Source: Cyanobacteriota bacterium (lineage in GTDB: Bacteria; Cyanobacteriota; Cyanobacteriia; PCC-6307; Cyanobiaceae). From it: 64,000 bases of DNA. Shown here in pieces: positions 49,675 to 52,678 of this stretch. Positions within the stretch are counted from its first letter, which is position 1; each line of letters begins with the position of its first letter. Location of the stretch: the NCBI GenBank assembly GCA_027620015.1, contig JAQCGH010000004.1:1-64000 (forward strand), in the 5' to 3' direction. Both the position numbers and the translations under genes were made by a program. The notes under the pieces are model-generated. The model searched no databases. It was given only the letters and a program-made list of their open reading frames with translations, and had not been told where the DNA came from.

Positions 49675-50649
49675 TCACTTACCGATCCGTAATACTGCCT
49701 TCTTGGCTGCAGCTTGGATAGTGTCCCGGAGGGGAACATAACCAAGATCGTCGGCAAATGCTTGAGCATTGTCGCTCAGGATGTAATTCATCATACTGCG
49801 TAGCGAATTAGTCTTATTTCCATTCCCCTTTTCGTAGAAAAGGAGATAAGTGAGTGTAGCGATTGGATATGCACCGGAAGCGGATGGATTGGGATTGTAA
49901 CCAGCCAGGTTCTTATCAAGCTTGATGTCGGCAAGAGCCTTGGCACCAGCAGCGGCAGTGGGAAGCATAAATTGGCCAGCCTTATTTTGAATGGCAGCGG
50001 CCTTCAGAGCTCCCCTTACATATGACTGGTTCACATAACCAATCGAACCAACGGTGGTATTGAGGACAGCAGAGACACCCTCATTACCCTTACCACCAAC
50101 GCCCACTTTCCATGCTACGGACTTGCCAGAACCAATGGTCCACTCTTTAGAAAAAGACTTCATCGATCCGGTGAATGCAGCTGTAGTACCAGAACCATCG
50201 GAGCGATGCGCCACAGTGATCTTGCCTTCCTTACAACCAAGCTGACTCCAGTTGTTTATCGATCCCATGAAGATCGAAACTGTTTGTTTCTGGGTAAGCT
50301 TCAGTGAGCAGCCAGGCTTGTTGTAGGCCACAGCGATCGACCCCCCAACGGTAGGGATCTGAACTACACCACGACTAACCTTCTTGATGTCCTTTTCCTT
50401 GATCGGGTCGTCAGTAGCACCAAAGGCAACGGTTTCATTGATGAATGCCTTGCGGCCACCACCAGAGCCAATGCTCTGATAGTTAACCTTAACCCCACCT
50501 GATTTGGACAACGTGGAAAACCAACGCTGATAAATAGAAGCGGGGAAAGTTGCTCCGGCACCAGACAAACGAACAGCAGCCTGGGAAGCTGCTCCGCCGA
50601 CTAGACCAGCAAATACCAGGGCCGTAAAAGATTTCTTAAGGAAAGTCAT
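49675..50649 (-). CDS. pstS: Phosphate ABC transporter substrate-binding protein
   Basis: RLSGAGATFPASIYQRWFSTLSK, YQSIGSGGGRKAFINETVAFGATD, VAHRSDGSGTTAAFTGSM. Confidence 0.95.
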   Translation of the reverse strand: MTFLKKSFTALVFAGLVGGAASQAAVRLSGAGATFPASIYQRWFSTLSKSGGVKVNYQSIGSGGGRKAFINETVAFGATDDPIKEKDIKKVSRGVVQIPTVGGSIAVAYNKPGCSLKLTQKQTVSIFMGSINNWSQLGCKEGKITVAHRSDGSGTTAAFTGSMKSFSKEWTIGSGKSVAWKVGVGGKGNEGVSAVLNTTVGSIGYVNQSYVRGALKAAAIQNKAGQFMLPTAAAGAKALADIKLDKNLAGYNPNPSASGAYPIATLTYLLFYEKGNGNKTNSLRSMMNYILSDNAQAFADDLGYVPLRDTIQAAAKKAVLRIGK

Positions 50650-50921
50650 TAGGTAAGGGACAATTCCAAAAGCATTTTAACAAATAGCCCCAGCTATATA
50701 CATTATGGGGAAATTAAGAGGCGGCAAAGCAATGGCAAAATATTGTCGCAGGCAATGTCATGAATAACTTTTTAGACTACCACGATAGCAACGGATTACG
50801 CAATAACCAACGCCAGGACCACCTTGGAGAAGAACGCGATGCCACAACAAAGTCTATACATCTAGTCATATAAAAGAATCAAGAATTAATCAAAATATCA
50901 CAGGAGCGATATACATGACAT

Positions 50922-50946
50922 AAAAAAGCCCCCTTTAGGAGGGGGC
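50922..50946 (-). terminator. Rho-independent terminator downstream of porin
   Basis: GCCCCC-TTTAGGA-GGGGGC with 6-T run on minus strand (A6 at 50922-50927). Confidence 0.8.
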
Positions 50947-51014
50947 TTAGAAAGTGTGTGTGAGAAACTACTAAGAGGAAGCAGTGAGGAGTGTCTTGAG
51001 ATGTGCGAATAAGA

Positions 51015-52583
51015 TCAGAACTTGATGGTAGTCTTGACTACAGCACCAAATACGTCTTGTTCAGCAGCGCTAGTAGTAGCACCAAGGCCATTATCTATAA
51101 AGAAAACAGCAGGTGTAACTGTGATCTTATCGCTTACCTTGAAGCGATAGAAGAGCTCATAAGCGAAGGTGTCTTCAGTTTTTACACCAGCTTCAGTATC
51201 ACCCTGTTGAGGCATAGCAAAGGCAAATCCAAGTGAATTACCCTTTACAAATGCATTATCCCACTGGAGTCCAGCTGTCCAACCAAAGGAATCATTGTTA
51301 CCCTTTGTCGCTGACAACCTTTCAACATTAGTACCACCAAGACCCAAGCTAATGGAGGGGATGATGCCTGTCTTTAAGGGCTTCCAGTAGCCACCAATTC
51401 CGTAGCTTATTGCATCTTGGCCAGCAGCTAATGTGGTTTGAGAAACTTTCGAACCTTTTCGAATGGTTTTTTGGCCTTCATTAATGTAATTAGCCGCTAG
51501 TGCTATACCCCAGTTTGGGCCAACATAGCCAAGCTGAGATAGCCAGCTATTACCTTCGTCGCCAAATAGTCCCTCACTAGAAACGGCAGCCTTCTTGTTG
51601 TCAGTGACATAGTTAGAGGAAACAGTAAAGTAGGGATTACCCTTCTTCACTTTTTGCTTCCAAGTAAAACCAAACAATGAACCGGTTGCCTTGTTGTAAA
51701 CACCTGTCGCACCTGCTAGACCAAAATAATCAAGAATACCAGACTTATAAGCAGAAGGGATAAATGCAACCGTCTCAGTATTACGAGCTAGAGGGCCAGC
51801 TGTAATTGTTAGGCCATCAATAGCCTTGAGTGGGAATTGATAATACAAACGGTCAAGGTTGATTGAGTCAGCTGTGCTAGCAGCAATATCGGCGCCAACC
51901 ATGTTTCCGGCAGATCCACTACCAGAAAATTGGTTGTCCTTTGCAAAATTGGCAGAGCGTAAACGCGAAACCAACTTACTTTTATCGCCAAACTGTGTTG
52001 TAAGGGTAAGGCGATAGTCGTAGTTAAACGTTGTCTTGTCTGCTGTTAGATCAGGGTTGCCATCAAGACCACCCAAGAAAAAATTTGCTACACCCTTAAG
52101 CCTGGTGGTGGTGGAGAACTGCTGGGCCTGCAGCTTGCCCACTTTCGACTCAAGTCCATCCACTCGTCCGGTAAGCACGGTTAGCTCGCCGTCGAACTCA
52201 TTAAGCAGCTTCTGCAGCTCGTCGGTCTTTTCGGTGACCCGGTCAAGGCAGGAATTAAGTAGGGCCGCCGCTTCATAGCGGGTCATGGCGTTGCCACCCT
52301 TGAATTTGCTGTCAGGGAAGCCGGCTACACAACCGTTCCTCTCAACCAGGTTGGCAAGTGCCTGGTAGGCCCAGTCTGTGGGCTGAACGTCGGAAAACTG
52401 GCTAACGCTGGTGACTTGATTTTTTGATTCCCAAGCACGGAAGCGATCAACGTCTTGCTGTTGCATGTACTCGTTGATGGCAGCACTGCCATTCAACGAA
52501 GCGAGCTCTTGTGCCGAAGCGGCCATTGGAGCCATCATGCTGGTGCCAGCTAAAGCCAGCAGCAACTTTTTGGAAAGATTCAT
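51015..52583 (-). CDS. SLH-domain outer-membrane porin (cyanobacterial OprB / iron-uptake-porin type)
   Basis: Signal peptide, SLH-like VSQFSDVQPTDWAYQALANLVERNGCVAGFPDSKFKGGNAMTRYEAAALLNSCL, coiled-coil, beta-barrel ending VVKTTIKF. Confidence 0.9.
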   Translation of the reverse strand: MNLSKKLLLALAGTSMMAPMAASAQELASLNGSAAINEYMQQQDVDRFRAWESKNQVTSVSQFSDVQPTDWAYQALANLVERNGCVAGFPDSKFKGGNAMTRYEAAALLNSCLDRVTEKTDELQKLLNEFDGELTVLTGRVDGLESKVGKLQAQQFSTTTRLKGVANFFLGGLDGNPDLTADKTTFNYDYRLTLTTQFGDKSKLVSRLRSANFAKDNQFSGSGSAGNMVGADIAASTADSINLDRLYYQFPLKAIDGLTITAGPLARNTETVAFIPSAYKSGILDYFGLAGATGVYNKATGSLFGFTWKQKVKKGNPYFTVSSNYVTDNKKAAVSSEGLFGDEGNSWLSQLGYVGPNWGIALAANYINEGQKTIRKGSKVSQTTLAAGQDAISYGIGGYWKPLKTGIIPSISLGLGGTNVERLSATKGNNDSFGWTAGLQWDNAFVKGNSLGFAFAMPQQGDTEAGVKTEDTFAYELFYRFKVSDKITVTPAVFFIDNGLGATTSAAEQDVFGAVVKTTIKF

Positions 52584-52587
52584 CGGG

Positions 52588-52596
52588 TCCTCACAC
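52588..52596 (-). promoter_or_regulatory. Predicted Yfr1 sRNA pairing site in porin mRNA leader (GUGUGAGGA)
   Basis: mRNA reads ...CGGUGUGAGGACCCG-AUG; GUGUGAGGA is complementary to UCCUCACAC of the Yfr1 motif ACUCCUCACAC and covers the GAGGA SD. Confidence 0.6.
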
Positions 52597-52678
52597 CGAT
52601 AGGGATGTCTTCACAAAGGAAGACGAATTAAATATATCGATGATGCAATCCAATAACGAGTACCTAGGAGACATCAAT

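Follow-up and report, generated by a model that had tools for sequence, protein, structure and literature searches.

A conserved candidate Yfr1-binding site in the leader of Cyanobiaceae porin mRNAs and a Yfr1-like motif in their 3'UTRs

Introduction

In Prochlorococcus MED4, the porin mRNAs PMM1119 and PMM1121 are targets of the small RNA Yfr1 (PMC6778093). An E. coli reporter showed 4 to 5-fold repression of PMM1121, which Yfr2 relieved (PMC6778093). In Nostoc, 11 selected Yfr1 targets responded, and most of the predicted sites were located in the translation initiation region (PMC6974561). As Yfr1 is abundant and changes little across conditions, the tuning of its porin targets is a question raised by the published work.

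A sequence-only reading of the 64,000-nt stretch of Cyanobiaceae DNA analysed here (the window) had proposed that the leader of a porin mRNA is a Yfr1 target blocked at translation initiation. Its reference to repression of porin mRNAs by Yfr1 in MED4 agrees with the two mRNAs described there (PMC6778093). The locus is presented below together with the genome assembly to which it belongs (1.83 Mb, 80 contigs) and with porins of other Cyanobiaceae.

Results

The following features were assigned in the window.

51015..52583, minus strand: SLH-domain OprB/SomB-type porin, 522 aa (PF00395, PF04966, NF033921)
52588..52597, minus strand: GGTGTGAGGA, 10 nt perfectly complementary to the unpaired motif in the Yfr1 of the same genome
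52588..52592, minus strand: Shine-Dalgarno (SD) GAGGA within the Yfr1 site, 4 nt 5' of the AUG (read directly)
52582..52600, minus strand: leader hairpin ATCGG(TGTGAGGAC)CCGAT, with the SD and the Yfr1 site in the loop
52607..52624, minus strand: upstream leader hairpin GTCTTC(CTTTGT)GAAGAC (read directly)
50984..50993, minus strand: Yfr1-like motif CACTCCTCAC in the porin 3'UTR
50926..50948, minus strand: intrinsic terminator of the porin transcript
49675..50649, minus strand: pstS, phosphate-binding protein, downstream of the porin (TIGR00975, above cutoff)

The porin leader reads ...CCTATCGGTGTGAGGACCCGATG on the minus strand, with GTGTGAGGA at 52596-52588 and CCTATCGGTGTGAGGACCCG immediately 5' of the ATG (52583-52581). 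The perfect complement to Yfr1 that had been noted in this leader is present, and its length of 9 nt was an understatement, as 10 nt match the Yfr1 of the same genome (GTGCGAGCTTCGGCTCTCACACTCCTCACACCCTCC...). The GAGGA had been rightly placed inside the site, but its distance to the AUG is 4 nt and not about 6. The start codon is supported, as the N-terminus read from this ATG is a signal peptide (MNLSKKLLLALAGT...) kept in 10 orthologs. The ATCGG/CCGAT leader hairpin is identical in 10 orthologs of the window porin and is therefore without covariation evidence. The stem of the upstream hairpin occurs in orthologs as GACTTC/GAAGTC, GATTTC/GAAATC and GGCTTC/GAAGCC, which are compensatory changes relative to GTCTTC/GAAGAC.

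The porin gene directly precedes pstS, both being on the minus strand, and the porin's own terminator separates the two genes (49675-52583). We take this arrangement to resemble the phoE-pstS order in MED4. Pho-box-like repeats were seen downstream at other porin loci (L069, L072 and L076).

The search of the full genome for yfr1, which had been left as a check, returned a canonical gene at G000:C76:12404-12460 (RF01116, 63.9 bits, E=1.6e-12), the unpaired linker of which carries the 11-mer ACTCCTCACAC. The genome also encodes a Cyano-1 (Yfr2-like) RNA on contig C11 (RF01701) with GGTGTGAGGAGTG at its 5' end. The leader motif is common to the porin and to this RNA, a point missed by the sequence-only reading. 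We infer that the Cyano-1 RNA is the Yfr2 of this genome because its 5' end pairs with Yfr1 in a predicted duplex of -31.8. All three parts, Yfr1, the Cyano-1 RNA and the porin leader, were found in the genome and show complementarity, and the site in the leader is conserved.

The 9-mer GTGTGAGGA is expected 0.37 times by chance in 64 kb and a single copy is unremarkable; the significance of the site is therefore carried by its position and its conservation. Across the whole genome there are 27 copies of the 8-mer TGTGAGGA, eight of which extend to GTGTGAGGA, and six of these eight are accounted for by porin leaders, porin 3'UTRs, yfr1 and the Cyano-1 RNA. The eight copies are distributed as follows.

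Porin leaders: the window porin and a second porin (contig C37)
Opposite strand of two porin 3'UTRs (contigs C1 and C40)
Opposite strand of yfr1, and the Cyano-1 RNA (contig C11)
Two copies read as inside coding frames

In both porins of this genome with an intact 5' end, TGTGAGGA is located just 5' of the ATG. Contigs C1, C37 and C40 end inside porin genes, and because of these breaks at least one further near-identical porin is expected beyond those that can be read whole.

Conservation was assessed in 130 Cyanobiaceae porins with an assigned start. The 8-mer was found 2-11 nt 5' of the start in 92 of them, representing 21 of 23 genera, and the 9-mer upstream of the start in 86, compared with 0/130 for the reversed 9-mer used as a control. 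All type A orthologs have the motif, and it extends beyond the family: of 10 porins from other families of cyanobacteria, 8 retain the TGTGAG core. The conservation on which the earlier proposal depended is borne out. When full-length Yfr1 was used as the duplex query against ORF starts, the results were dominated by its own stem arms, and the unpaired linker alone was used for this reason. The linker was predicted to pair strongly with the porin leader (-19.3 kcal/mol), and this was the third best energy among the 122 ORF starts in the window. The hybrid energy of -18.5 outweighs the approximately 7 kcal/mol needed to open the leader, so that a net gain is predicted. The putative Yfr1 site in the leader is beyond chance. 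There is good support for reading it as a Yfr1 target, which would add a further case to the biology already published for MED4 and Nostoc (PMC6778093, PMC6974561).

The 3'UTRs of porin mRNAs, that of the window porin included, contain the counterpart of the leader motif, a mimic of Yfr1, which the sequence-only reading had also missed. In the same genome, the porin 3'UTR on contig C1 has GGACTGGATTCCTCACACATTTCCAGTCC and that on contig C40 a version with one base changed; in both, a hairpin loop holds the Yfr1 motif. A hairpin with the loop CCUCAC(A/G)C was found in porin 3'UTRs of nine genera (g1, g6, g10, g12, g36, g40, g41, g44 and g45), and in most lineages carrying the 3' motif it is housed in such an apical loop. 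The full 11-mer is rare in this hairpin class and the conserved core is CCUCACAC. All eight stem pairs vary on both sides, with a covariation of 0.626 compared with 0.233 for shuffled and at most 0.356 for slid alignments; these figures lean toward structure because they were computed on an alignment fitted to the structure model, but the differing stems are plain by eye.

The hairpin gave no match in Rfam. The 26 best hits of a model of the hairpin in 131 family genomes (E <=5.3e-5) were all just 3' of porin stop codons and included the non-training genomes G049 and G076, while its weaker hits were mixed. Weak hits outside porins (E 7.5e-5 to 0.01) were mostly inside ORFs and were treated as chance. 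The hit in the Prochlorococcus-like genome G018 is a porin terminator with ACTCCTCACAC in the loop (L202, 1501-1539). A gene for an RRM-type RNA-binding protein adjoins the porin at this locus. Low-GC Prochlorococcus-like genomes are mostly without the 3' motif. No description of a Yfr1-like element in the 3'UTR of a porin came up in the main texts of the papers searched. The putative conserved 3'UTR RNA element is an addition that is unlisted in Rfam, and a possible overlap with the Yfr10 of WH8102 is to be considered.

The window porin represents a hairpin-less form. Its 3'UTR contains GACACTCCTCACTGC about 25 nt past the stop codon, and the motif CACTCCTCAC shares ACACTCCTCAC with Yfr1. This motif is kept as CTC[CT]TC[AG]C in 11 of 11 orthologs examined, approximately as well as the terminator. 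It is unpaired and has no enclosing hairpin, and thus differs from the loop arrangement of Yfr10.

The relationship between the 3' motif and the leader was measured by contiguous complementarity. Long duplex energies, which this measure replaced, were noisy and failed to outperform shuffles in the window class. Among hairpin-class porins, complementarity to the own leader over 8 or more contiguous nt was seen in 59%; with shuffled 3'UTRs the share was 4.3%, and with the reversed leader 3%. Of 95 porins whose leader has TGTGAG, 42 have the 3' motif, and of 27 whose leader lacks it, none does (Fisher p=2e-6, a value that ignores shared ancestry).

One explanation is that the 3'UTR hairpin acts in cis, the CCUCAC core pairing with the leader GUGUGAGG of the same mRNA and closing the SD as in icaR, which we consider possible but rather unlikely. 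It would account for the 8-12 nt of complementarity to the own leader in most hairpin-class porins, and for two g40 porins in which the two sides have changed to match, with GTGTGAGGTT in the leader and AACCTCACAC in the 3' site. Own leader-3' pairs also exceeded swapped pairs within genera in 993 of 1000 permutations, but the excess is small (8.44 vs 8.27 nt) and ancestry may explain it. Complementarity of the 3'UTR to the own SD is beyond chance in the hairpin class but not in the window gene, where only 7 nt are complementary to the leader and the duplex energy is no better than shuffled.

The 3'UTR might instead give rise to a separate Yfr10-like sRNA, processed or transcribed, which would repress porins in trans; we hold this to be a doubtful alternative. 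In its favour, the loop-motif hairpin is followed by a linker and a terminator, and Yfr10 likewise has the motif in a loop atop a stem (PMC6778093), an arrangement found in the hairpin-class 3'UTRs.

A third explanation, to which we assign a rather low likelihood, is that the motif sponges the Yfr2-type RNA or serves as its target site, so that the porin mRNA would free Yfr1. For the window 3'UTR, the predicted duplex with the Cyano-1 RNA (-22.9) is stronger than that with the leader of the same mRNA (-12.9), and the 10-mer CACTCCTCAC has four genomic copies, namely in yfr1, on the opposite strand of Cyano-1, in the window porin 3'UTR and at one other position. The hairpin form, however, is predicted to pair equally with both partners, at -16.3 and -17.1 for its loop with porin leaders and about -17 with Cyano-1.

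In genera without an RF01116 match, most of the leader motif persists, although other RNAs that carry the Yfr1 motif occur in some of these genera. The leader motif is lost in G023, which has no Yfr1 match. The genomes of genus g5 (G014, G065, G088 and G136) have no RF01116 match, and their leaders have GTGTGAGGT or GTGTGAGTT and not GTGTGAGGA; this change may be a relaxation following the loss of Yfr1. A hairpin of the GACACTCCTCACACAA(G/T)TTGTC type, followed by a terminator-like stem, was seen in several low-GC genomes (L274, L289, L290, L296 and L270), some of which have no Yfr1 match; it looks like Yfr10. A GGGCCGCACTCCTCACACCGCGGCC hairpin is repeated beside similar flanks in G118 and G066 (L321, L322 and L323), and could represent a mobile element or else an RNA of the Yfr10 type.

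That the leader motif is simply an unusual SD region for strong translation, to which Yfr1 is incidentally complementary through its resemblance to the anti-SD, is improbable: GAGGA is plausible as an SD and the motif survives where a genus has no canonical Yfr1 match, but conservation extends beyond any SD pairing to the GTGT on its 5' side, not one of the eight genomic GTGTGAGGA copies precedes a non-porin start (27 8-mer sites read), and homologous porins are experimental Yfr1 targets (PMC6778093).

Discussion

The preferred reading is that the leader is a conserved Yfr1-binding site and that the 3' motif feeds back on the same circuit, and we consider the two together to be probable. Against it stand the persistence of the leader motif in genera that have no RF01116 match, the 7-nt own-leader complementarity and missing hairpin of the window 3'UTR, and the scarcity of the 3' motif in low-GC Prochlorococcus-like genomes. 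The single-stranded ACUCCUCACAC of Yfr1 would pair with GGUGUGAGGA of the leader, most likely covering the SD and blocking the initiation of porin translation. We infer the binding, the repression and the direction of the effect from complementarity and from the homologous systems. The Cyano-1/Yfr2-type RNA, whose 5' end mimics the leader, would titrate Yfr1 and relieve the repression. The 3'UTR motif, whether still part of the mRNA or released from it by processing, would then feed back on the Yfr1 circuit, our first choice of partner being porin leaders for the hairpin form and the Cyano-1 RNA for the hairpin-less form of the window porin. It could do so by pairing with its own leader, as a processed sRNA, or by binding the Yfr2-type RNA, and sequence does not separate these three routes.

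The more general proposal, that porin mRNAs of Synechococcus/Cyanobium relatives combine a 5' Yfr1 target with a 3' Yfr1/Yfr10 mimic as a built-in porin feedback loop, is a tentative one, which we would place a little short of an even chance. The presence of a Yfr1 pairing motif in the porin 3'UTR suggests that porin messages may be self-regulating in part. If this is true, a Yfr1-mimicking porin 3'UTR would couple the amount of porin message to the balance between Yfr1 and Yfr2.

PMM1119 and PMM1121 of MED4, alr0834 of Nostoc and others share with the window porin the same Yfr1 motif, homologous porins, and sites mostly in the translation initiation region. These targets belong to other lineages and were tested experimentally, whereas the window porin is a predicted target, and the main texts of the corresponding papers make no mention of the 3'UTR motif. 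Yfr10 in HL Prochlorococcus is a separate gene beside yfr2, whereas the present hairpin is within porin 3'UTRs. The icaR mRNA of Staphylococcus aureus is an unrelated gene in an unrelated organism, and OppZ and CarZ of Vibrio cholerae are processed sRNAs in a different chaperone context; compared with both, the evidence for the porin element comes from sequence. In icaR, as in the hairpin-class porins, a 3'UTR motif is complementary to the SD of its own mRNA (PMC3868564), and in the 3'UTR-derived OppZ and CarZ, again as in the hairpin class, an element of the 3'UTR is complementary to the translation start of its own mRNA (PMC7398697).
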